A stretch of DNA of 64,000 nt, taken from assembly GCA_017529425.1 (NCBI GenBank), contig JAFXNQ010000045.1, forward strand, positions 1 to 64,000, read 5' to 3'. The notes below the pieces were generated by a model. The model was not told the DNA's origin. It saw only the letters and a list, made by a program, of their open reading frames with translations, and did not search any database. Shown one piece after another: positions 32,158 to 55,424 of the stretch. This DNA comes from Bacteroidales bacterium (lineage in GTDB: Bacteria > Bacteroidota > Bacteroidia > Bacteroidales > UBA932). The stretch's first letter is position 1; each line of letters begins with the position of its first letter. The position numbers and the translations under genes were made by a program.

Positions 32158-32862
32158 TTAACCTAAGATTTTTTTCTTGTTTACGCCTATTGCGAATTCT
32201 TTTAGGTAGAAGGGCTCCATATATGCCACATCTTCAAAGTTTTCGTTCATAAAGTTTATATAGGCGAGACGGGAAATATAGTCTGCAGAAGGGTCGCATG
32301 AGATAAATATAGCACCCTTTCTTTCTATAATACTTTCAAATTTAAAGCAGCCGTTTCCGCAGAAAAGCAGCCGCTTGCCAGAAGGCAGTTCGCTGTAAGA
32401 AGAGCCGTCCAGAATCTTTGGTGAGATTTCGCCAATCCGGGCTCCGGTGCCGTCGTAGAGTGCCTGGTAGACCTCCATACGGCGGGCATCTATCATCGGG
32501 ATTACGTAATCTGCGCCTGTCTGGGACAAGGCGATGCCCTGTGCGGCCAGAATAGCCAGCGTGCCTACTCCTATCAGGGGGATGCCGGCGCCAAAGCATA
32601 GTCCCTTGGCCATGGATACCCCCACGCGCAGACCTGTGTAGGATCCCGGACCGCTGCTCACTGCAACTGCAGAACAATCTTTCACGGAAAAGCCGTTTCT
32701 TTTGAGCAGTTCCTCTATCATAGGGGCCAGCCGGGCTGTCTGCATCCTGGACCCGGTTTCAACGATACTGTCCATCGTCACTCCGTTTGCAGAAAGTGCT
32801 GCAGAGCAGACGTCGGTGCTGGTTTCAATTGCCAGAATGATTGTCTCTTTGTTAGGTGCCAT
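32158..32862 (-). CDS. tsaB: tRNA threonylcarbamoyladenosine synthesis protein TsaB
   Basis: A 234-residue ASKHA-fold protein that partners TsaD in making t6A37 in tRNAs. Family features are ILAIETSTDVCSAAL at the N-terminus and AVSSGPGSYTGLRVGVSMAKGLC in the middle. The length is normal. I chose ATG 32862, which overlaps the end of the HlyD gene by 11 bases; TTG 32868 is a less likely start. The overlap ties this housekeeping gene to the peptide-export operon. Confidence 0.93.
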   Translation of the reverse strand: MAPNKETIILAIETSTDVCSAALSANGVTMDSIVETGSRMQTARLAPMIEELLKRNGFSVKDCSAVAVSSGPGSYTGLRVGVSMAKGLCFGAGIPLIGVGTLAILAAQGIALSQTGADYVIPMIDARRMEVYQALYDGTGARIGEISPKILDGSSYSELPSGKRLLFCGNGCFKFESIIERKGAIFISCDPSADYISRLAYINFMNENFEDVAYMEPFYLKEFAIGVNKKKILG

Positions 32863-34024
32863 TGCCAATGTTTATCCTGTCACCCTCCTTGAGGGTCTTG
32901 TTTATCAACTGATAGGGGCCGGCCACAATCAAGTCGCTCTCTTCCAGTCCGCTGCAAATCTCTATCCGGCCAAAATCCTGGATGCCGCATTGCACCTGTT
33001 TCAGGTGGACCTGCTGTTGGGAATCTACCGTCCAGACGCACTCTTTCCCCCCGTTTATCACAATTGCCTGCAAAGGTACAGTTAAAATGTCATTTTTGGA
33101 ACCGGTATAAATTACAACTGATGCGGACATGCCCGGGAGGAGTGTTGTAAGTTGTTTTGAATCAATACTTATGTGGACTTCAAAATCGGTTGCGGATGAT
33201 AATGCTCCGCTCCTTGACGCGCTCACTGCCGTCTTGGTGACCTGCCCGTCCAGTGTGACGGAGGGGGAGGAGTCTGGCTTGATCTGCGCCTTGTCGCCAG
33301 CTTTGATGTTGCAGATATCGTTCTCTCCGACCTGCACAACAAGTTCCATGCTCTCCAGATTGGCGATGGTCATAATTTCTGTCCCCGCCATAGTGCTCGT
33401 GCCGACAACCCTCTCTCCAGGCTTCACCCTCAGGGATGTTACCGTGCCCGACATGGGGGCATATACAGTGGTCTTGGCCAGTTCGCTCCGGGCCGCTTCC
33501 AGTTGTGAGCGGGCCACCGCAATCTGACATTCGCACTCTTCGCACCGGGCGGTGGCGGTTTGCAGGGCTATGAGAGTCTGATCAAGCTGGCCGGCGGGGG
33601 CGGCATCATTCTCCACCAGATGTTTTAACTGGTTGTACTCCAGCTCTTTGAGCCGTCGCTCACACTGCTGTACGTCGCGTGCCTTTACGGCACTGCCGAG
33701 GGTCGCCTCGCACCTTGATATTGCAAGCAGATAACTCTCCTGTTTTATCTTGAACAGCAGGTCGCCTTTGTTCACGCGTTTCCCCTCCTCAAAGCGCAAT
33801 TCTACAATCTCCCCGGATACGTCTGGGGAGATGGTTACCTCATTCACTGCTCTGATCAGTCCGTAAGCAGAGGCTGTCTGTACTATTTCGCCACGTTCCG
33901 GATAGACCGTTTCTGCGGCCGTATCCCCCTTGTGTGAAGGGAGTAATGCAAGTGTGGCTGTCAATGCGGCCGCCGCAATTGCAATCCACCATCCGCGTCT
34001 CTTTTTACTCTTTCTGGCACCCAT
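32852..34024 (-). CDS. HlyD-family periplasmic adaptor of peptide exporter A
   Basis: A 390-residue membrane fusion protein. It has a basic N-terminus, one membrane helix (about 13-29), a biotinyl-lipoyl half (EVTISPDVSGEIVELRFEEGKRVNKGDLLF), a helical hairpin (about 100-175) and the second lipoyl half (APMSGTVTSLRVKPGERV). Beta-barrel and membrane-proximal domains follow. It would link the ABC exporter at 35793-37859 with the TolC channel. It overlaps the TolC gene by 20 bases upstream and tsaB downstream. Confidence 0.88.
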   Translation of the reverse strand: MGARKSKKRRGWWIAIAAAALTATLALLPSHKGDTAAETVYPERGEIVQTASAYGLIRAVNEVTISPDVSGEIVELRFEEGKRVNKGDLLFKIKQESYLLAISRCEATLGSAVKARDVQQCERRLKELEYNQLKHLVENDAAPAGQLDQTLIALQTATARCEECECQIAVARSQLEAARSELAKTTVYAPMSGTVTSLRVKPGERVVGTSTMAGTEIMTIANLESMELVVQVGENDICNIKAGDKAQIKPDSSPSVTLDGQVTKTAVSASRSGALSSATDFEVHISIDSKQLTTLLPGMSASVVIYTGSKNDILTVPLQAIVINGGKECVWTVDSQQQVHLKQVQCGIQDFGRIEICSGLEESDLIVAGPYQLINKTLKEGDRINIGNGT

Positions 34025-35306
34025 TGTAGTATAGATTCAATATTATATTTTGGAACAGATATTTGCACCTGCACTGGAGATGGTCGCACGCGCTTTGCGC
34101 ATAGTCCTCGCCCGCCTCCAGCCATTGGGCGGTGGAGATTGACCCCAGTTCGTACTCCCGGTCGGCGAGACGCAATTTCTCCGCACAATATTCCTGACGC
34201 GCCCTGAGCGACTCCTGCTGGTTTTTCAGCAGAGCACATTGCTGCCTGAGTTGCAGCAGATTATAGGCGGATTCTTCTGTGATTTGCTGCAGTCGGAGCC
34301 GTTGCGTTTCAAGGTCATTTCTGGCACGGGCCAAATCTCCTGCGGCCTTGCCGCAATCCAGTATCGGGACCACCAGCGAGAGCGATACAGATGGGTTGCG
34401 GTTGTTGCTGACCTGCTCCCTGAATACGGCATCGGAAGCATCGCTATAGTAGGTTCCGTATGCGGCGGAGAGTGACAGAGTAGGGAGCAGTGCCCCCCTG
34501 GCGGCTTTCAACGAGTTCTCGGCAGCCTTGACAGAGTGCTCCGCGGCCGCTACCGCAGGGATATGTGGGAGATAATCCTCTTCAGGGTGTATCTCCATGG
34601 CGGGATGGAATTCATATTCTGCCATGTCGGTTGAAAAAGGTTCTTCCCGGCCGGTAAGTTTGCGTAACTGTTGCATCTGTACAGCCTCCTCCGATTCTGC
34701 CTGGGCAATGCGGGCGCTGATGTCAGCCGCCTTGGCCTCCAGCTCCAGCAGGTCGGCGGTGGTGCGCTGGCCACGTATTGTAAGTGAATGAACTTTTCCA
34801 ATCTGCCGCAATACATTCTCGTAGCTCTCAGTCAAGCGCTCTGCGGTGAGGCGTGCCAGTATATTCCCGAGATAGGCGCGGGAGATATCTGCCTTAATCT
34901 CCAGAGCGGTTTGTGCGGCTTCGTCCGCTGCAGCCTGAGCCAGCGCACGGTTCGCCGCAATTGTGCTAAGTGTCGCAAATCCGTCAAATATTGAAAACGA
35001 TGCGCCGACAGAGGCGCTGGTCTGTCGCGTAAGCCGGTTTCTTACAATGACCAGTTCCTGCATATCGACGCTTCGTCCCCAATTGTAATACTGATTGACA
35101 TATAATTGAAGAGTGGGGAGCAGTTTCATCTTTGATTGCATCAAATCTATCTGGCTCCTGCGCTTCTGCGCTTCTGCAAGCAGTATGGAACTGTTGTGAG
35201 ACAGTGCGTAGTCTATACAGCTGTCAAGCCTCCATGAAGGGGCCTGGGCCTTAGACCCGGTCCATATTGCTGTCAGCATAACCAATATCGTTGCAAATCG
35301 TTTCAC
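34005..35306 (-). CDS. TolC-family outer-membrane channel of peptide exporter A
   Basis: A 433-residue outer-membrane efflux protein with a signal peptide (KRFATILVMLTAIWTGSKAQ). The two repeats of the TolC fold are visible: long helices with ALAQAAADEAAQTALEIKADISRAYL and later AEHSVKAAENSLKAARG...LPTLSLSAAYG. The start is GTG 35306, just before the signal peptide; TTG 35324 is in frame but adds a non-signal-like extension. It follows the second peptide gene by 31 bases. It provides the exit duct for the secreted peptides. Confidence 0.87.
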   Translation of the reverse strand: MKRFATILVMLTAIWTGSKAQAPSWRLDSCIDYALSHNSSILLAEAQKRRSQIDLMQSKMKLLPTLQLYVNQYYNWGRSVDMQELVIVRNRLTRQTSASVGASFSIFDGFATLSTIAANRALAQAAADEAAQTALEIKADISRAYLGNILARLTAERLTESYENVLRQIGKVHSLTIRGQRTTADLLELEAKAADISARIAQAESEEAVQMQQLRKLTGREEPFSTDMAEYEFHPAMEIHPEEDYLPHIPAVAAAEHSVKAAENSLKAARGALLPTLSLSAAYGTYYSDASDAVFREQVSNNRNPSVSLSLVVPILDCGKAAGDLARARNDLETQRLRLQQITEESAYNLLQLRQQCALLKNQQESLRARQEYCAEKLRLADREYELGSISTAQWLEAGEDYAQSACDHLQCRCKYLFQNIILNLYYNGCQKE

Positions 35307-35337
35307 TGCCCCCCGCTCATTCAAAAGTCAATACAGC

Positions 35338-35517
35338 TTACAATGTTTCAGCCTCCACAACGGGCCCCTTGGGTGTGAAGAGGCTGACAATGCATTTTAC
35401 AAGAAAACCGATTGCGTAACCGATGTAGTAAATCGCGCTCTGGGCGTTCTTGTCGATACCGCCGGTAACCAGGCAGCACTCCTGCAGGGAGATGGCTTCA
35501 AATGAATTCTTTGTCAT
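35338..35517 (-). CDS. Double-glycine-leader peptide B (59 aa, bacteriocin-like precursor)
   Basis: A 59-codon gene. The first 20 residues (MTKNSFEAISLQECCLVTGG) form a double-glycine leader, with hydrophobic positions before the Gly19-Gly20 cleavage site. The predicted mature peptide has 39 residues. It is largely hydrophobic with a central helix YYIGYAIGFLVKCIV containing the GxxxG motif Gly33-Gly37, and has a near-neutral net charge. A single Cys remains after cleavage, so no internal disulfide is possible. It lies between peptide A and TolC, downstream of a C39-peptidase ABC exporter that would cut and export it. No ribosomally encoded immunity protein is recognisable nearby. Confidence 0.8.
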   Translation of the reverse strand: MTKNSFEAISLQECCLVTGGIDKNAQSAIYYIGYAIGFLVKCIVSLFTPKGPVVEAETL

Positions 35518-35530
35518 GGCTGGACCCTCC

Positions 35531-35725
35531 CTATTTTAAAGCGTTATAACCATCTTTGAACCCATTGATCAGGCTGGGGATGTAGTCATCCAGAAAATCC
35601 ATTATCTTGCGGATCAGGGCAACGATGTTCCCCAGATTGAATTCGGCGCTTACGCCGCCGCAGATGTAAAGTTCGGAAGAATCCAATCCCTCCAGAACTG
35701 AACCACAAAATCTTTGTTCTTCCAT
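35531..35725 (-). CDS. Double-glycine-leader peptide A (64 aa, bacteriocin-like precursor)
   Basis: A 64-residue precursor whose first 24 residues end in LDSSELYICGG, close to the classic leader pattern LSxxELxxIxGG. Cleavage after Gly24 would release a 40-residue peptide starting VSAEFNLGNIVALIRKI. It would be an amphipathic helix with a C-terminal GxxxG (Gly55-Gly59) and slightly acidic net charge. The gene is 13 bases upstream of peptide B and 67 bases downstream of the exporter. The pairing of two leader peptides, each with GxxxG, is the pattern of class IIb two-peptide bacteriocins. A signalling role is also possible. Confidence 0.82.
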   Translation of the reverse strand: MEEQRFCGSVLEGLDSSELYICGGVSAEFNLGNIVALIRKIMDFLDDYIPSLINGFKDGYNALK

Positions 35726-35744
35726 AGTAATAATTGTTTAAAGT

Positions 35745-35768
35745 GTCTGCAAAACCGGGCGTGCAGAC
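35745..35768 (-). promoter_or_regulatory. Hairpin upstream of the peptide genes
   Basis: GTCTGC (35745-35750) and GCAGAC (35763-35768) form a perfect 6-bp stem with a 12-base loop, 20 bases before the peptide A start. It could be a processing or stability element that separates exporter and peptide expression. Confidence 0.4.
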
Positions 35769-35780
35769 TTCGCCCTATAA

Positions 35781-35796
35781 GTGAATGCGCATTCAC
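35781..35796. promoter_or_regulatory. Perfect 16-bp palindrome at the exporter stop codon
   Basis: GTGAATGCGCATTCAC is fully self-complementary and includes the exporter's TGA stop (35795-35793). No T-run follows on the minus strand, so it is more like a protein-binding site than a terminator. Confidence 0.5.
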
Positions 35797-37859
35797 ATTT
35801 CAATAAGTTTGTCCGCTATCGGGATTTCATCGGCCTTGTGTGTGATCATTATCACTGTAAGGCCGCGGGTGGTGTTTTCCCTCTTTATCACCTCCAGCAT
35901 TTTCTGCTGGGAGGCGGCATCCAGAGAGTTGGTCGCCTCATCAAGTATAAGTATGTCGGGCTGGCGATACAGTGCCGCAGCAATGGCAATCCTCTGCTTC
36001 TGCCCTCCGGAGAGACGGCATCCCGACTCCCCCACAAGGGTCATTATGCCCCGGGGGAGGTCCCGGGCGATGTTCTCCAAACCGAGGTCTACCATAAGGC
36101 GGGCTACCCGTTCCAGATCGTAATCTTTCCGTTGACCGGTTATGTTAAACAGTATCGAGTCGTCGAACAGTCTCACATCCTGGGGCACTATCGTCACTTT
36201 TCGACGCCATTTTGCAAGGTCAAACAGAGCTATGTCAATCCCGCCCAGGGTGATAGTCCCTTTGGAAGGGGAATAGAGCCGCATGGCCAGCGCCGCCAGA
36301 GAGCTTTTGCCGCATCCGCTGCGCCCCTTTACTACCGTTATCTTGCCGGCCGGAATCGTGGCCTGGAAATCTTCAAGCAGGTTCATGGAGCCCGGGTAGC
36401 AGAACGTGACACCGTCAAACACCAGGTCGCCCTTCACCGGTGCCGGGTCGCTCCCGTCCGGGCGCTCTTCCTCCAGGTCCATAACTTCGAACAGTCTCCG
36501 GGTGGAGATACGGGTCTGCGTGACCAGGGAACTGACACCCACCAGTTGACCCAGCGGGGCGGAGAAGAAGGTGGTGATGGAGTAGAACCCCACGAGCGTA
36601 CCTACGCTCAGATCCCCTTTCAGGATAATCAGTGATCCGGCAGAAAGGAGTACTACCGTGAGCAGTTTTGATGCCGTTTCTGCCAGCACGCCGTACCCGC
36701 CTGCGACGCTTCCGCCCTTGTAAATCTTATCGCACAGGGCGGTGTACTGGGCCCCGATATTCCGGGAGGCCTCGCGCTCCGCACCGGCGTACTTGATGCT
36801 TCTCACCGCTGCGATGCTCTCCACGCATTTCTTCTCAAAAAGGGTGCTGCCGGCTATGATCTCCCGGTTGTAACGGTTGCCCGCTCTGGTCGCCAGATAG
36901 TAGATAACTGTGTAAACCGGCACAAACAGGGCCGTCAGCAGAGCCAGCCTCCATTGGAACGTGAACATCAGTATAAACGATGTCAGCAGGGTGAACAGAC
37001 TTATTATCACAGATGATATGCCCTCGGTTACAAACCGTCGGACTGTATATGCATCGCCTATGCGGGAATTAATCTCGCCGGCGCCCCTTTGGCTGAAGAA
37101 AGCCACAGGCAACCGGAACAGATGCAAGATGAATGAACCGATAATAGTCTGGTCGATGCCTGTGGCTGCGGTCAACAGAGTGTTGATCCTGATTTTACCG
37201 ATAAGGAAAGCAAGAAATGAAAGAATAGTCATCGCCAGGGCGGGACCTGCAATGCGGCCGGCATCGCCCGAGGGGATGATTTTGTCTATGAAATATTGCA
37301 GGAACAGGGAGAAACTTATTCCCGCAAGGATGTATAACAGTGAGAAGATAATACTGGCGGCAATCTCACCCCCAAACATCGAGAGGAGTTTGCCAAGCCG
37401 TTCGCGGGTGGATATGGTTTCGTTGCCGGGGCGGAACCCGCTGCCCGGGGTAATTTCCACCAGGTAGCCGCTCCACCGGCGGCATAGTTCCTCTTTTGAG
37501 ATATGCAGGTTGCGCCCCTCTGCGGGATCCATGACCAGTGCGCCCCTGGCGTCGCAAGATATCAAAACTATAAAATGGGGGTCGCCCTCTGCAGTGGCTA
37601 CGTGCAGGATCGCTGGCAATTGTGAAGGGTCTATTGCGTTCAGATCCTTTCCTGCAGACTTCAGGGGGCGGGCCTCCAGATTGATAGCCTGGCAGGCATC
37701 CATGATACCCTTGATTGTTGTTCCCTCTATGGACGCCCCGCACGCCTGGCGGATATTGGCCAGCGGCAGTGAAAGTCCCCAGTATCGGGCTATGGCGGCT
37801 ATGCAGGCCACCGCGCAGTCGGTACGGTCGTGTTGCTTGACAGGTTTAAAGTGTTTCAT
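35793..37859 (-). CDS. Peptidase-containing ABC exporter (C39, bacteriocin type)
   Basis: A 688-residue PCAT. The N-terminal C39 peptidase (about 1-130) has the catalytic Cys15 in QHDRTDCAVAC with Gln9, His95 (DPHFIVL) and Asp111 (MDPAEG). All are present, so it should be active. Six membrane helices (about 160-440) precede the ATPase: Walker A GRSGCGKSS, signature LSGGQKQRIAIA and Walker B ILILDEAT. It cleaves double-glycine leaders and exports the mature peptide. Directly downstream are two such precursors, then TolC and HlyD, forming a complete one-step secretion machine. Confidence 0.94.
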   Translation of the reverse strand: MKHFKPVKQHDRTDCAVACIAAIARYWGLSLPLANIRQACGASIEGTTIKGIMDACQAINLEARPLKSAGKDLNAIDPSQLPAILHVATAEGDPHFIVLISCDARGALVMDPAEGRNLHISKEELCRRWSGYLVEITPGSGFRPGNETISTRERLGKLLSMFGGEIAASIIFSLLYILAGISFSLFLQYFIDKIIPSGDAGRIAGPALAMTILSFLAFLIGKIRINTLLTAATGIDQTIIGSFILHLFRLPVAFFSQRGAGEINSRIGDAYTVRRFVTEGISSVIISLFTLLTSFILMFTFQWRLALLTALFVPVYTVIYYLATRAGNRYNREIIAGSTLFEKKCVESIAAVRSIKYAGAEREASRNIGAQYTALCDKIYKGGSVAGGYGVLAETASKLLTVVLLSAGSLIILKGDLSVGTLVGFYSITTFFSAPLGQLVGVSSLVTQTRISTRRLFEVMDLEEERPDGSDPAPVKGDLVFDGVTFCYPGSMNLLEDFQATIPAGKITVVKGRSGCGKSSLAALAMRLYSPSKGTITLGGIDIALFDLAKWRRKVTIVPQDVRLFDDSILFNITGQRKDYDLERVARLMVDLGLENIARDLPRGIMTLVGESGCRLSGGQKQRIAIAAALYRQPDILILDEATNSLDAASQQKMLEVIKRENTTRGLTVIMITHKADEIPIADKLIEM

Positions 37860-48476: not shown

Positions 48477-49310
48477 TCACTGAGCCTTTGTGACGATGGC
48501 GGTCATACCGGGCATGAGGTTGGGGTGGGGCTGTAGCGTTGCCTCCATGTGTACCATGCCATTCTTTTCCACCACCGGGCTGATGGCCGAGATATAGGCC
48601 TCGTGAGCTTCTGCCGGATATGCTACGCTGTAGACCAGAATCTTTGTGCCCGGTTCAAATTTGTGCAATTCGTTTTCCAGCACGTCAAAACAAACTTTCA
48701 GGTGTTCGGTGTCCACAATGTAGAACAGCGGGACTCCCGGAGTCGCTGCACTGTACAGGGTGGCGTCTATACGACTCACGGCACCTGTCAGAGGGGCAGT
48801 GATGGTGCAGTAGGTGAGCTCGTGTTCAAGCTGCTGGAGCGAAGCCTTTGCGGTGTTATAGCCGCTGTTTACCCTTGCCTGATCCCGCAGTTCCTGTGGA
48901 GCATTCTCCAGATCCTGGCGCTTGTAACCCTGCCCGATCAGGATGGACTGGTACTGATATTCTGCCTTCTCCAGCTCGGCCTTGTTGCGGTTGATCTTGT
49001 CCAGCAGCACGTCCCGGCTCAGACGGGCTACCACCTCTCCTTTACGCACGCGCTGGCCCAGCACAAGGTCAAAGCTGACAATCTGCTCTGCGATACGGCT
49101 GTACACCGGGACCTCCATTGTGGCCTGAATGGTCCCCTTGCTGGAGAAACCTTCAGTCTCTATGGAATGCTGCAGGTTCTGCGCCGGGGTAACTTCCGCC
49201 TGAGGGACGATTGCAGGCTGCGGCTCCGCCACCGGGGCAGAGTTGCGGCTCTGGCACGCGGTAAGCGCTATGGCGATGGCTATGGCTATGATGATGAAAG
49301 ACCTATTCAT
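48477..49310 (-). CDS. RND/HlyD-type adaptor lipoprotein of exporter B
   Basis: A 277-residue membrane fusion protein with a lipobox (IALTAC, Cys19). Lipoyl halves are EVPVYSRIAEQIVSFDLVLGQRVRKGEVV and later CTITAPLTGAVSRIDA, separated by a short helical hairpin. It lacks the long N-terminal helix of HlyD proteins and resembles RND-pump adaptors. It is the last gene of the NHLM-like operon, overlapping the TolC gene by eight bases, so it probably bridges the ABC pair or a second pump to TolC. Confidence 0.85.
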   Translation of the reverse strand: MNRSFIIIAIAIAIALTACQSRNSAPVAEPQPAIVPQAEVTPAQNLQHSIETEGFSSKGTIQATMEVPVYSRIAEQIVSFDLVLGQRVRKGEVVARLSRDVLLDKINRNKAELEKAEYQYQSILIGQGYKRQDLENAPQELRDQARVNSGYNTAKASLQQLEHELTYCTITAPLTGAVSRIDATLYSAATPGVPLFYIVDTEHLKVCFDVLENELHKFEPGTKILVYSVAYPAEAHEAYISAISPVVEKNGMVHMEATLQPHPNLMPGMTAIVTKAQ

Positions 49311-50712
49311 ACTGAGTAAGGGTTAAGAGATGGTAGTAGGTGGTCCAGTATACGGCCAGTGCAGACAAATACTGATTATAGGCATTGTCTCGGCGGTTCT
49401 GGGCCAGGGAGTAGGTATTTATGTCGCAAAGTCCGTTGGCGTAGTTCTCTGCCGTCAGGGCAAAAACATCATCGGCCAGGGCCACCGCCTCAGTAGTTTG
49501 TGCTAGCATCTGCTCATGGGCGCGGAGATTGGCCAGAGTGGTGCGGACATCCTCGGCCAGGGCACGTTCCACCTCCCGCAGGGCCTGTGTTTCACGCTCC
49601 TTCCAGGCTACGGCTGCTTCGTGCCCACTTTTGGCTGCGCCGTGGTCCACAATCGGAATGCTTAGGGTGACGGCCCCCATCATATAGAATCGGGGGTCTT
49701 TTATGGAACCGACCAGATTGGAGCTGAGCTGCTGCATGCCGACGTTCAGATCCACGCCTACCTTGGCACCCTGTTCCCGACTTGCTTTTTCCTGTTGCTG
49801 ACGAGCCTCGGTGAGTGCCATCTGACACTGCTGGATATCGGGACTGTTGGAGCGGGCCAACTCCAAAATATCATCGTCGGAGAGGGCGATCTGTCTGGTG
49901 AGAGTGGGAATGGTGAGCCGGCCTCCGTCCGGGAAGTCATCTGTACGGAGATATGAACTCAGGGATTCGCGAGCCAGTTGCTCCTCGTTACGTGCGCTCT
50001 GGAGTGCATTGTAGGCGTTTAGCCTCTGAAGCTCCAGAGAGCGGAGTTCTGCCAGCGTCACCATGGCGATGCCGGCTTTCTCTTTGGCTATGGCATAGAG
50101 AGTATCGGCCGTCTGCATGTTGCGCTCGCACATGTCCAGAGTACCCTGGGCACAGGCAAGGCGGAAGAAACGGCGGGTGGTCTCTTCTGCTATGAGGTAC
50201 AACTGATGTTTTAACTGCTTGCGGGCAGATTCCATCCGGGCCTCCTCCACGGCCTTCTCCCAGCGGTAAGGATTATATCCCATAAGAGATTGCTGATATC
50301 CCATTACCAGAGGCATAGTCACGAATTCGCGGGGCATGTCCCTCTGGTCGTTCAGGAAGTACTCGCTCCAAAGAGCCTGGCTGCCCACATAGGCGTCTCC
50401 ACCCAGCCCGGGGACTTTTTGAGAAAGCATCAGTTGGGCGTTGGTAGAGAACCGGTTGAAGTTACGCAAGTACACATAATCCCGGGTAGGATCTGTGATC
50501 AACTTCATATAGCTGGGTGTGATATTCAACTCCAGCTGTGGCTTTCTGAGAGCTTCAAACCGAGCAAATTGCCGGGTATGATATTCGTATTCGTAGCGGC
50601 TCTGAAAAGCGGCTATGGTACTGTCCTGAGCCAGCCGGATCACTTGCTCAAGGCTTTGGGCCTGACCCAGCAGCGGGATAGTACAGAGTAAACCAATCAA
50701 GAACTTTCTCAT
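49303..50712 (-). CDS. TolC-family outer-membrane channel of exporter B
   Basis: A 469-residue protein with a signal peptide (MRKFLIGLLCTIPLLGQAQ) and the two long-helix repeats of the TolC fold. The second repeat starts near ILELARSNSPDIQQCQMALTEARQQ. It overlaps the ABC gene upstream (ATGA) and the adaptor downstream. It would form the outer-membrane exit for this export system. Confidence 0.86.
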   Translation of the reverse strand: MRKFLIGLLCTIPLLGQAQSLEQVIRLAQDSTIAAFQSRYEYEYHTRQFARFEALRKPQLELNITPSYMKLITDPTRDYVYLRNFNRFSTNAQLMLSQKVPGLGGDAYVGSQALWSEYFLNDQRDMPREFVTMPLVMGYQQSLMGYNPYRWEKAVEEARMESARKQLKHQLYLIAEETTRRFFRLACAQGTLDMCERNMQTADTLYAIAKEKAGIAMVTLAELRSLELQRLNAYNALQSARNEEQLARESLSSYLRTDDFPDGGRLTIPTLTRQIALSDDDILELARSNSPDIQQCQMALTEARQQQEKASREQGAKVGVDLNVGMQQLSSNLVGSIKDPRFYMMGAVTLSIPIVDHGAAKSGHEAAVAWKERETQALREVERALAEDVRTTLANLRAHEQMLAQTTEAVALADDVFALTAENYANGLCDINTYSLAQNRRDNAYNQYLSALAVYWTTYYHLLTLTQYE

Positions 50713-52811
50713 GCCGTTTGCCGTTTAATGATTTCACTGAACAGGCCGCCCTTGGCCATGAGCTCATCAAAGCTGCCGTCTTCTGCCACCTTTCCGCCGT
50801 TAAGCACGATGATGCGGTCGCAGCCCCGGATGGTGCTCATCCGGTGGGCGATGGTGATGCGGGTGCAATTCATCTTGGCAAGATTCTGCGTAATGATGTG
50901 CTGACTGATATTGTCCAGAGCAGAAGTGGCCTCGTCCAGGAAGACGATTTGTGGTTTGCGGATCAGGGCACGAGCCATCAGGATGCGCTGACGCTGACCA
51001 CCGGAAACACCCTGGCCGTCGGCAGAGATGGGGGTTTCCAGCCCCAGTGGCAGCTCTTTGATATCCTTGTCCAGGGCTGCCATGCGGGCGGCCTCCCAAA
51101 CATCCTCGTCGCTGTACACGTCGTTGCCGAAAAGGATATTGTCCCGGATGGTCCCTTCAACCAGCTGGCCATCCTGCAGGCAGATGCTAACGCAGTAACG
51201 GCGGAGACTGGGCTTGTTGATCTCATCCAGATTATGCTCGTCGTAGAAAATAGAACCGGCCTCAGGCTGTTCAAAACCCAGCAGCAGGCGCACCAGAGTG
51301 GATTTTCCGCAACCGGATGGTCCCACAAACGCCACGTATTCCCCGGGCAGGATGTGGAGGTCCAGATCGTCGAAGATATAGGGCATGTTTTCCGAATAAC
51401 GGAACTTGAGGCCGCTCACATCAATCTTACCGCTGATGTTCTTGAGAATCACGTCCCCCGACCCGGCCTCCGACGGGGCTTCCAGGATGGGGGTGCAGAG
51501 CTTCAGTTCCGGTCCCAGCACGGCCACGTCCTTGGTAATGCGTTCAAAATCCTCCACGGCGCGGACGGCTATGGTGAGAACGCTGCAGTAGGCGATGTAG
51601 TCCGACAACCCAAGCCCGTAATGCCAGGCGGCCAGCATGGTCACCAGAAGCGGGACCAAACGGAAATTATAGCTGATGGAATTGCCGATGCTGAACATGG
51701 CCGGATACCGGCTGCCGTTGGGTTCGGAGGGTTCATATGCCACAGCCCAATGGCGGAAGGCCCTGATTTCTGCCCCGTTGGTGCGGATCTTCTGGGCGCC
51801 GGAAACCAGGTTGTAGATAATGCCGGTGAGCTTGGATGCGCTCTCGTTGGCGCTGTTCTGTACGTCCTTACGGAAGTAATAGACACTGTAGATGGCCAGC
51901 ATATACAGCGCAATCACCAGAATGCCTGTCCACAGGAGCGGGCCACCGTAGGTGAAGAACTGGATGAACATCACGGCCGTGAACAACAGGGAGAGGATGG
52001 TGGAGAGCATATCCTCCGTAAGCTTGGTAAACAGTCTCACGACCGAAAGCACGCGGTTGGAGAGATCACCCGGAGCGTACTGCTTGAAGAATGTGGTGGG
52101 CAACATCAATAGCCGGGCCATCAGCGGCGTCTGCATGGCGTACTCCGTCTTGTCTTTCATTCTTACTACCAAGTAGTTGCGGGACAGTTGAACCGTGACC
52201 AGGCCGATGGCGGCCGTAAAGAGCAGTACGGCGATTGGCGTCAGCTGGGCTGCGTCTCCTGAAGGGATGACCTCGTTGAAGAGTAGCTTACAGATGTATG
52301 GTGTGACCATGGTAAGAAGGACGACGCCCAGGCAGGCCAGCATTCCGCAGAGATAATCAAAAACGCTGAGTTGTCGCAGGGCATGCTTCAGGAAAGATGT
52401 GAGGGTCAGTTTTTCCCCGGGCAGCGGATAGCAGAGTGAGAACGCCTCTGGCTTCAGCAGGTTACTGTCTTTACGGGCAGAGCAGCGCTTTCCCGTGGAG
52501 GGATGGGCAAAGGAGTAATCGGCAAATCCGGGGGTTAATATCACCGGCAGGTCCTCCCCGGCGGTAAAGGCCAGCAGTTTTCCCGAGCAGCGGGACCACC
52601 AGTTACCTTCCAGTTGGACAGGCGTGAAAAAGATCTGATGCCGATAAAAAAGCTCTTCCAGTTGGTTCAGGTCCGTAGGGATCTCCCGCTGCCGGGTAAG
52701 CTGTTTCCACAGTTTCCGGTCAATCATGGCGCGGAAAATGTCGGCCGACTGGTTCAGTGCTTCACGGTCGCCCTCAATGCGCTGTACGAACTGTTCAAAG
52801 AAAGGATTCAT
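50709..52811 (-). CDS. NHLM-type bacteriocin ABC exporter, subunit 2
   Basis: A 700-residue ABC permease-ATPase. An N-terminal cytosolic region of about 150 residues without C39 catalytic residues is followed by six membrane helices (about 155-430) and an ATPase. The ATPase has Walker A GPSGCGKST, signature VSGGQRQRILMARAL and Walker B IVFLDEATSALD. The layout matches the second ABC protein of NHLM (nitrile hydratase leader microcin) secretion systems. It lies three bases after the first ABC gene, with which it probably forms a heterodimer. Confidence 0.85.
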   Translation of the reverse strand: MNPFFEQFVQRIEGDREALNQSADIFRAMIDRKLWKQLTRQREIPTDLNQLEELFYRHQIFFTPVQLEGNWWSRCSGKLLAFTAGEDLPVILTPGFADYSFAHPSTGKRCSARKDSNLLKPEAFSLCYPLPGEKLTLTSFLKHALRQLSVFDYLCGMLACLGVVLLTMVTPYICKLLFNEVIPSGDAAQLTPIAVLLFTAAIGLVTVQLSRNYLVVRMKDKTEYAMQTPLMARLLMLPTTFFKQYAPGDLSNRVLSVVRLFTKLTEDMLSTILSLLFTAVMFIQFFTYGGPLLWTGILVIALYMLAIYSVYYFRKDVQNSANESASKLTGIIYNLVSGAQKIRTNGAEIRAFRHWAVAYEPSEPNGSRYPAMFSIGNSISYNFRLVPLLVTMLAAWHYGLGLSDYIAYCSVLTIAVRAVEDFERITKDVAVLGPELKLCTPILEAPSEAGSGDVILKNISGKIDVSGLKFRYSENMPYIFDDLDLHILPGEYVAFVGPSGCGKSTLVRLLLGFEQPEAGSIFYDEHNLDEINKPSLRRYCVSICLQDGQLVEGTIRDNILFGNDVYSDEDVWEAARMAALDKDIKELPLGLETPISADGQGVSGGQRQRILMARALIRKPQIVFLDEATSALDNISQHIITQNLAKMNCTRITIAHRMSTIRGCDRIIVLNGGKVAEDGSFDELMAKGGLFSEIIKRQTA

Positions 52812-52814
52812 ACA

Positions 52815-54530
52815 TCAGGCGTATTTAAGAAGTTCCCGGTACAGGCCTTCCTGCTGCGCGAGTTCGTCGTGCGTCCCCTGCTGTAGCAGTTTTCCATGTT
52901 CCATTACAAAGATGCGGTCACAGTCCCGGATGGTACTGAGCCGGTGCGCAATGAGTACCAGCGTGATGCCCAGGCCTCCGATATGGTTCATCACCAGTTC
53001 CTCGGTCTTGGGATCAAGGGCAGAGGTGCCCTCGTCCATAATCAGGATGGAAGGGTCTTTGGCCAGGGCGGTTGCAATCTCGATGCGCTGGCGCTGGCCG
53101 CCGCTGAAGTTCTTTCCGTTCTCGGACAGATGGGACTGGTAGGCACCAGGACGTCCGGCGATATCCTCGTGGATCTGCGCGTTGTAAGCGGCCATCACCA
53201 TGGAGAAGTCCTCAATGGAGTTGTCCCACATCTTGATATTGTCCGCGATAGGACCCTCAAACAGGGTGATATCCTGGTTGACCACCGAGAGGGAATTGTT
53301 CTTGAGGGCGCGGTCCAGTTTCCCGACCGGAATGCCGTCCAGCAAGACCTCTCCTTCCCAGGGTTCATACAAGCCGGAGATGAGTTTGGCGATAGTGCTC
53401 TTTCCACAACCGGAAAATCCCACGAAAGCTACCCGCTCCCCGGGCGCTATCTTGAGGGAGAAATGCTCGAGTATCGGCGGGTTGTTGCGATCGTAGCCGA
53501 AGGTTACGTCGCGCAGTTCCACCTCCCCGCGGAGTTTTGGAGTGTCCGGCAGGGCATCCACGTCTGACAGTTTGAGGGAACGGCCCTCCGTGGCCGTTTC
53601 CACCTCTTCAAGCCGTTCCATTGCGGCCTGTGAACGGTAAATCTCCTGGGTAGAGCTGACTACCGAGTTGATGGGGAAAGTGATGCTGGTGGCGAGTGCC
53701 TGCGAGGCCAGCAGCATACCTGGCGTCAGTTCTCCCTGCAGGATATACCAGGCTCCCAGGCTGAGGATGAGGGCGTTGCACAGGTTGAGGACAAGCAGAG
53801 GCAGGGAGCCTATGCTCATGGTTCCCATGGTGGTTTTCACCCTGGCATTCAGGGCTTTGACATAAGTCTCCTGCCATTTGTTGAAGAAGGTGCGCTCCCC
53901 GCCCATGGACTTGATGGTCTCCATGTTCTTGATTCCTGTCATAGTCACGCCCTGCAGGCGGGCATCCGTTTCTTCTGATCCCCGGGCCCTCTTTTTGATG
54001 GTGTTGGCCGTGGTCCGCATAACCACCACCAGCAGCACCATGGAGAGCACCACCACCAACCCCAGTTTCCAACTGTACAGGACAAGCAGCAAGGCGCAGA
54101 TAAGGGGGCGCAGCACCATCACCAGAGCGTAGGAGAAGTGGTCCATGGCTGCTCCGATGTTCTTTATGCTGGAATAACGGGCCACCAGTTCGCCGGCAGA
54201 AAAACGGTCAATGGCGTTCATCGGCAGATTCAGCAGGCTCAGGACGTAGCGAGAAGAGGAGGAGATCCCCAGCTTGGCAAATTCCCGCCGGCGCAGCGGG
54301 TTGAGAAGCAGCCACAAGGTGAGCTCCAGCACGAACAGCATCCCATAGAAGATCATCAAAGGGGTAAACCATTCGGGGTTCTTGTGCGTGATGATGTTGT
54401 CCGTATAGACCTGCTGGAAGAAGGGAGGCAGCAGGTAAGAGGCCATATCAGCCAGAAGGAGCAGGAAGGTGACCAGGAAAAAGCCCTGGCACCCCCGGTT
54501 GAATCGCCGTATCAGGGTGGCCAGTTTCAT
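52815..54530 (-). CDS. NHLM-type ABC exporter, subunit 1, lacking the C39 peptidase
   Basis: A 571-residue ABC permease-ATPase that begins almost directly with the first membrane helix (FFLVTFLLLLADMASYLL). In NHLM systems this partner normally has an extra N-terminal C39 peptidase of about 140 residues, absent here. The ATPase motifs are GFSGCGKST, FSGGQRQRIEIATAL and SILIMDEGTSALDP. Loss of the peptidase means leader removal, if any, must be done by another protease. Its ATG overlaps the stop of the HlyD gene. Confidence 0.85.
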   Translation of the reverse strand: MKLATLIRRFNRGCQGFFLVTFLLLLADMASYLLPPFFQQVYTDNIITHKNPEWFTPLMIFYGMLFVLELTLWLLLNPLRRREFAKLGISSSSRYVLSLLNLPMNAIDRFSAGELVARYSSIKNIGAAMDHFSYALVMVLRPLICALLLVLYSWKLGLVVVLSMVLLVVVMRTTANTIKKRARGSEETDARLQGVTMTGIKNMETIKSMGGERTFFNKWQETYVKALNARVKTTMGTMSIGSLPLLVLNLCNALILSLGAWYILQGELTPGMLLASQALATSITFPINSVVSSTQEIYRSQAAMERLEEVETATEGRSLKLSDVDALPDTPKLRGEVELRDVTFGYDRNNPPILEHFSLKIAPGERVAFVGFSGCGKSTIAKLISGLYEPWEGEVLLDGIPVGKLDRALKNNSLSVVNQDITLFEGPIADNIKMWDNSIEDFSMVMAAYNAQIHEDIAGRPGAYQSHLSENGKNFSGGQRQRIEIATALAKDPSILIMDEGTSALDPKTEELVMNHIGGLGITLVLIAHRLSTIRDCDRIFVMEHGKLLQQGTHDELAQQEGLYRELLKYA

Positions 54531-55396
54531 TACTCAACCCTCAGTTTTAAGGCGCGGAACCAGGTTCTGGCCCCCTCGAACAGATACTGGAACATACTGC
54601 GGCGCCGCGTCTCCGTGAGCACCGAGCAGTAGGTACCGACATTCATATTGACATCTTCCGGCTGACCAAAAGACCAGTAGAATTCAGAAGGATTTTTTGG
54701 TGAAGGGAGCAAATCGATCTGTACCTGGAACATCATCTCTCCCGAAGAGAGCAGGCGCTGGGCCATCTCCTCGTTCTTGAGGGTCTGTCGCACCTCGCTT
54801 GCGGAAACGGGGTAACGGTCAATCCGCGATACAATCCCCCGGACATAGCCGATCTCATCTCTCTTTTCGTCTTCCGGCCAAACCTGGGCGGCCATCCCTT
54901 CCCGCAGGTCCCGCTGGCCGGCGTTATCGATGTAGGCTATGAGCATCGACCGCTGCGTTGGAACCTGAGTCCCGCTCACTACACTGATGATGGGTTCAAA
55001 GGCCTCGAACGGTTCATTGTCCACCTTGGTGCTGATGACTGTCCCCTCCACCGTGCTGGTGAGGATGCTATAGCTCTCCTCCATAGATATAAGGGCCACG
55101 GATTGCCCTTTTTCAACGCGGTCGCCGCTATGCACAAATATTGACCTTACCATACCACGGTTGGGGAGGGAGACATCCGTGGTGCCTTCCGGCGGAAATA
55201 CAACGCCGCTGTAATATACTTTGTCTGAGACGGTTCCCAGGAATCCCCATACAAAGAAAGACCCCAGTAGAAGAATGGCGGTGAGGGCCAGCAAATAGGT
55301 TGGCAGCGCCGTAATTCTGAGGGTTTTTCCTATCTGATGAGGGGACCGGAGCTTATCCTGGCGACTTTCTTGGGAAAAGGGGTTCTGATCTTCCAT
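54530..55396 (-). CDS. HlyD-like NHLM secretion protein
   Basis: A 288-residue protein with one membrane helix (about 33-52), a short lipoyl-like domain (RGMVRSIFVHSGDRVEKGQSVALIS) and a beta-barrel region. There is no long coiled coil between the lipoyl halves. This compact form is that of NHLM system secretion proteins. It is the first gene of the five-gene export operon, with TATCTTTG upstream. Confidence 0.8.
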   Translation of the reverse strand: MEDQNPFSQESRQDKLRSPHQIGKTLRITALPTYLLALTAILLLGSFFVWGFLGTVSDKVYYSGVVFPPEGTTDVSLPNRGMVRSIFVHSGDRVEKGQSVALISMEESYSILTSTVEGTVISTKVDNEPFEAFEPIISVVSGTQVPTQRSMLIAYIDNAGQRDLREGMAAQVWPEDEKRDEIGYVRGIVSRIDRYPVSASEVRQTLKNEEMAQRLLSSGEMMFQVQIDLLPSPKNPSEFYWSFGQPEDVNMNVGTYCSVLTETRRRSMFQYLFEGARTWFRALKLRVE

Positions 55397-55416: not shown

Positions 55417-55424
55417 CAAAGATA
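55417..55424 (-). promoter_or_regulatory. -7 element of export operon B
   Basis: TATCTTTG on the minus strand, 21 bases upstream of ATG 55396 and inside the 42-base gap after the ZIP gene. Confidence 0.6.

Follow-up and report, generated by a model that had tools for sequence, protein, structure and literature searches.

We describe here a five-gene operon in a 64,000-nucleotide stretch of a Bacteroidales contig (the whole stretch is referred to as the window) that, as judged from its genes, makes up a full exporter across both membranes, derived from the NHLM peptide exporters. Its ABC proteins have no C39 peptidase, which was most simply lost once, and one of them carries an N-terminal domain predicted to fold as C39-like. 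With somewhat better than even confidence, we read the system as an NHLM-derived two-ABC exporter that works without cleavage, probably moving an uncut polypeptide that is encoded in trans and recognized by the C39-like domain. The system is conserved, mainly in ruminant gut Bacteroidales; a literature search of partial coverage turned up no account of an NHLM lineage lacking C39 in this order.

Organization and family assignment of the operon

The five open reading frames (ORFs) lie at positions 48477-55396, all on the minus strand, with ends that overlap or nearly touch, and are ordered, 5′ to 3′, as MFP1, ABC1, ABC2, TolC, and MFP2 (Table 1).

Table 1. Features of the operon, in window coordinates
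Feature	Position	Strand	Description
Likely own promoter	55417..55424	(-)	Bacteroidales -7 box TATCTTTG, 28 bases upstream of MFP1
MFP1	54530..55396	(-)	288 aa; inner-membrane adaptor related to TIGR03794 (NHLM HlyD), without the alpha-helical hairpin
ABC1	52815..54530	(-)	571 aa; TIGR03796-type permease/ATPase without C39 peptidase domain
ABC2	50709..52811	(-)	700 aa; TIGR03797-type permease/ATPase with non-catalytic, predicted C39-like N-terminal domain
C39-like domain of ABC2 (residues 1-140)	52392..52811	(-)	Predicted fold and profile-profile match
TolC-like outer-membrane channel	49303..50712	(-)	469 aa; PF02321 (OEP) 78 bits, two matched stretches
MFP2	48477..49310	(-)	277 aa; lipoprotein adaptor with a helical hairpin region of ~65 residues

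In profile searches, ABC1 matches TIGR03796 with 561 bits over model positions 144-710 of 710, and ABC2 matches TIGR03797, by far its best family, with 597 bits. The best non-NHLM family for both proteins is TIGR01846 (HlyB), which at 347 bits for ABC1 and 317 bits for ABC2 trails by 214 and 280 bits, respectively, and MsbA falls behind the NHLM families by an even wider margin. Drug or lipid exporter membership, and likewise the RTX exporter families, were ruled out for the pair by these scores, in which TIGR03796 and TIGR03797 lead by more than 200 bits. A preliminary description of this DNA had recognized five overlapping genes of NHLM style and had proposed a profile comparison in which a drug or lipid placement would speak against that view; all ORFs and their best profiles bear the description out, with both ABC proteins nearest the NHLM ABC1 and ABC2 families and no such placement occurring. 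Furthermore, by its nesting among C39-bearing NHLM pairs in both the ABC1 and the ABC2 tree, the pair shares descent with NHLM ABC1/ABC2.

Three curated cut-offs are missed, namely those of TIGR03796 by ABC1 (561 vs 853 bits), of TIGR03797 by ABC2 (597 vs 709 bits), and of TIGR03794 by MFP1 (130 vs 156 bits), for which TIGR03794 is still the best family. The shortfall of ABC1 arises at least partly because the peptidase part of the model (positions 1-143) is absent. Since these cut-offs are missed and the peptidase and precursor features described by Haft 2010 are lacking, we name the system NHLM-derived rather than an NHLM exporter. By its domain content it is also not a PCAT, a class defined by a C39 domain with Cys-His-Asp: ABC1 has no C39 domain, and the corresponding domain of ABC2 has no Cys in residues 1-73. 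Neither ABC protein is nearest to TIGR01846, as would be expected of the HlyB type, the scores for that family lying far under those for the NHLM families; by analogy, the system may work like HlyB without being HlyB. In both ABC1 and ABC2, the Walker A, signature, Walker B with catalytic Glu, and H-loop motifs are all intact, so both predicted ATP sites look active.

The two adaptors differ in their predicted helices. In the MFP1 model, the only membrane-type helix is N-terminal (33-53) and the two lipoyl halves have no helix between them; the protein measures 264-293 aa in the window's family (f1) vs 370-434 aa in most C39-bearing relatives outside it. Because the hairpin is also missing in four C39-bearing relatives outside the family (266-300 aa), this trait predates the loss of C39. 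MFP2 matches TIGR01730 with 96 bits, above the cut-off of that model, has a lipobox Cys19 that is invariant in 18 relatives, and contains between its lipoyl halves a stretch of ~65 residues whose helicity was judged from sequence. Together, MFP1 and MFP2 probably stand in for one full HlyD. The TolC gene of the operon is truncated or split in two of 31 related loci (truncated at L045:11097-11423 and split at L067:4396-5810), reflecting either real decay or assembly error.

These 31 further loci (ABC2 identity 55-90%) emerged when 84,980 species genomes were scanned, and the five-gene order is kept in them wherever the contig is long enough. Comparison with three relatives gave dN/dS values of 0.05-0.15 for all five genes, and the operon is under purifying selection; chance is excluded by these values together with the recurrence of the same genes in the 31 loci. 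The selection values also contradict the view that the operon is a functionless, decaying remnant of a bacteriocin system, which is very improbable: although precursor and peptidase are gone and TolC is damaged in L045 and L067, the ATPase motifs are intact and the system is conserved across deep splits in about 40 loci. A ruminant sample is named for at least 24 of the 31 loci, a count in which sampling bias is possible, and three loci are labeled Prevotella. L057, a contig labeled uncultured Clostridiales, bears an operon copy of ordinary Bacteroidales type; misbinning is the probable cause. Within the window's family, 12 carriers of the window-type operon were found besides its own genome, plus more distant NHLM pairs, and none of the other 25 genomes of its genus has the window-type operon.

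In 16 of 22 loci, where shuffles expect 1.2, a -7 box (TAnnTTTG) lies at most 70 bases before MFP1 begins; upstream of the internal gene ABC2, the count is 0 of 18. Clustering of flanking ORFs across loci returned no family at a consistent position, only scattered chance clusters of antisense frames, and the five genes are therefore regarded as the unit. The operon is now stand-alone, usually with its own promoter box. When congeners were searched for an empty insertion site, a ferritin-GPx-MarR block was found to be kept in G020, which lacks the operon; as the ZIP gene from the opposite flank is not next to this block there, no clean empty site is demonstrated.

The missing C39 peptidase and a predicted C39-like domain

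The ATG of ABC1 overlaps the MFP1 stop codon by one base, which leaves no room for a C39 domain, and from this junction the C39 domain of ABC1 is judged absent, not decayed. An artefact of assembly or gene-start calling, by which a C39 domain or a precursor would be present but missed, is the least probable explanation considered: most of the loci come from metagenome assemblies and the window's own genome is 92% complete, but the lack of space at the junction contradicts this explanation for C39, and the same MFP1/ABC1 junction recurs in independent assemblies. The first ~130 residues of ABC2 are non-catalytic; residues 1-73 contain no Cys, and as the catalytic Cys of C39 would be expected there, the domain should not be a C39 peptidase. 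Both points had been anticipated in the preliminary description, which had ABC1 beginning at its membrane domain without C39, in agreement with a match starting at TIGR03796 position 144 and an ATG abutting MFP1, and had called the N-terminal region of ABC2 non-catalytic.

Structure prediction gives ABC2 residues 1-140 a C39-like fold. The best structural match of the N-terminal model is the C39-like domain (CLD) of HlyB (Z 8.1, 3.5 Å, 110 residues), for a model of mid-confidence (mean pLDDT 69; residues 1-13 under 50) in which a Z of ~8 alone is not conclusive. The peptidase domains of PCAT1 and ComA are also among the top matches, and every one of the best 17 is C39 or C39-like. Additionally, a profile-profile comparison supports this assignment with an E of 3e-4 when distant ABC2s are included and a weak 0.02 without them. 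The predicted domain is retained across the C39-less clade.

C39 is missing from the 38 ABC1s of that clade and present in 20 of 20 NHLM pairs sampled from other Bacteroidota families. In trees built without the C39 columns, with long branches as a caveat, all systems lacking C39 group together as one clade inside a C39-bearing background (97/92 in the ABC1 tree, 99/96 in the ABC2 tree). As C39 occurs in all outside relatives and the C39-less systems make up a single nested clade, one loss is the simplest history. In the window's family, C39 is also missing in eight more distant loci (L073-L079, L082), which are surrounded by unrelated genes; it is intact in L040, L072, and L081, and L080 has a fragmented ABC1. 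In the last of these C39-bearing loci, ABC1 is in three fragments (L080:4774-6915), and the system may be broken.

Precursors and the second exporter

The preliminary description had seen no leader-peptide gene in or beside the operon and had suggested a genome search for NHLP and Nif11 leaders; that search likewise found none. Leaders of the NHLP, Nif11, and GG types are lacking in both the window and the 92% complete genome, in which the NHLP and Nif11 models have zero matches at E<=1. Of 20 C39-bearing genomes outside the window's family, 11 carry NHLP leaders (TIGR03793) and nine carry Nif11 leaders (TIGR03798), 18 in all, often within a few kb of the exporter. Searches for both types came up empty in 20 genomes carrying the C39-less operon and in the C39-bearing genomes of the window's family. 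The genomes are related, and these tallies are accordingly counts rather than independent trials.

Within the family, double-glycine peptides adjoin C39-bearing loci (L040:14462-14590 and L081:10595-10816), and another (251-475) adjoins the incomplete NHLM locus L083. TIGR01847 matches to leaders of this double-glycine type occur in three genomes (G052, G112, and G264), and in neither the window's genome (G000) nor any genome with the C39-less type only. TIGR04149 found leaders only in G175, with two matches on a contig different from that of the operon. Being short, the leader models overlook some known cases: both TIGR04149 and TIGR01847 miss a visible leader in the congener G014, so the silence of TIGR04149 is weak evidence. 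A simple motif scan around the 38 C39-less loci gave no credible leader. The association of C39 exporters with GG precursors has been reported in Bacteroidales (PMC10352776), and the pattern of leaders and C39 seen here agrees with it.

The L081 and L083 peptides contain Cys and are possible new bacteriocin precursors. In G014, genes read from sequence as STAS, RsbW-like, and SpoIIE-like, together with a substrate-binding-type protein, precede the C39-bearing NHLM operon (L040:10774-14590), and the region encodes a 42-aa peptide with two GG sites. G052 holds both a C39-bearing (L072) and a C39-less (L082) NHLM-type operon, plus 14 double-glycine leader matches elsewhere, which makes it well suited as a natural test of how such systems divide their labor.

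A stand-alone operon without a precursor could also be an exporter that no longer moves peptides and now carries a small molecule or lipid, for efflux or self-protection. Many ABC exporters of this fold carry lipids or drugs, and MFP2 resembles RND-type adaptors (TIGR01730). However, the ABC proteins are nearest the NHLM profiles and, in the trees, C39-bearing peptide exporters, and the clade has kept the predicted C39-like domain, a type of domain typical of polypeptide exporters; we consider this alternative unlikely, though the most serious one.

The window contains a second exporter, 10.6 kb from the operon, whose ABC protein (35793-37859) bears a C39 domain that looks intact and whose TolC and MFP genes come next; the row (32852-37859) is succeeded by tsaB, and no leader peptide was found beside it. 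With 363 bits to TIGR03796, this ABC protein belongs to another branch, and it is the only protein of the genome that matches the C39 part of that model. The second, unrelated peptide exporter initially noticed at 11 kb is thus real, but two exporters are unremarkable and do not make the window unusually rich in such systems. Some RiPPs are processed in trans by a separate protease, and the operon might in the same way export a leader-bearing peptide that is cut by the C39 of the second exporter, the sole candidate of its kind in the genome, or by another protease. This is quite improbable, as no GG, NHLP, or Nif11 leader was found in the genome, the genes of the second exporter are not among the conserved flanks of other loci, and its ABC protein lies on a different branch.

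Proposed working and relation to known systems

The proposal that the system may export an unprocessed or distantly encoded product, already made in the preliminary description, is, as an inference, the best reading left. For an exporter of uncut polypeptide, ABC1 and ABC2 would pair as a heterodimer, and cargo recognition would fall to the C39-like domain of ABC2. This would parallel the CLD of HlyB, a non-catalytic C39-like domain on which secretion of the substrate mainly depends (PMC11026475). The cargo would be a polypeptide with its gene elsewhere in the genome and would leave the cell either uncut or after cleavage by a different protease. Its passage through the inner membrane would be driven by the ABC pair. 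MFP1 would act with the hairpin of the lipoprotein MFP2 in place of one HlyD, and the two adaptors would dock TolC and let the cargo out. A bolder proposal, tentative and on balance doubtful, is that one clean peptidase loss turned a peptide-maturation exporter into one devoted to secreting uncut proteins, in which the leftover C39-like domain serves recognition and the role of HlyB evolved independently.

Exporters that have the peptidase can here be set beside relatives that lack it, each with or without leaders; this natural before-and-after pair makes it testable how the cargo of an exporter shifts when cleavage is lost. An annotation such as "NHLP bacteriocin export" on genes of this kind need not mean a bacteriocin.

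Like the NHLM/NHLP exporter (TIGR03794/03796/03797; Haft 2010, PMC2887384), to which its best profile matches point, the operon encodes an HlyD-like protein and two different ABC proteins adjacently. Unlike that system, it has neither C39 nor an NHLP/Nif11 precursor, combines a hairpin-less HlyD with a second lipoprotein adaptor and TolC, and has an ABC2 of 700 aa rather than the about 970 of many relatives. With the C39-bearing Bacteroidales exporters that have double-glycine precursors (PCAT; PMC10352776), it shares the ABC fold, an adaptor plus TolC, and the bacterial order, and its C39-bearing sister loci have double-glycine precursors as PCAT systems do, whereas the operon itself has two ABC proteins and neither peptidase nor precursor. 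Type I secretion by HlyB/HlyD/TolC (PMC11026475) resembles it in the predicted non-catalytic C39-like domain, the expectation of uncut cargo, and the complete path across both membranes; the ABC pair, however, sits with NHLM by sequence, the C39-like domain is found on one of two ABC proteins, and no cargo gene lies nearby.
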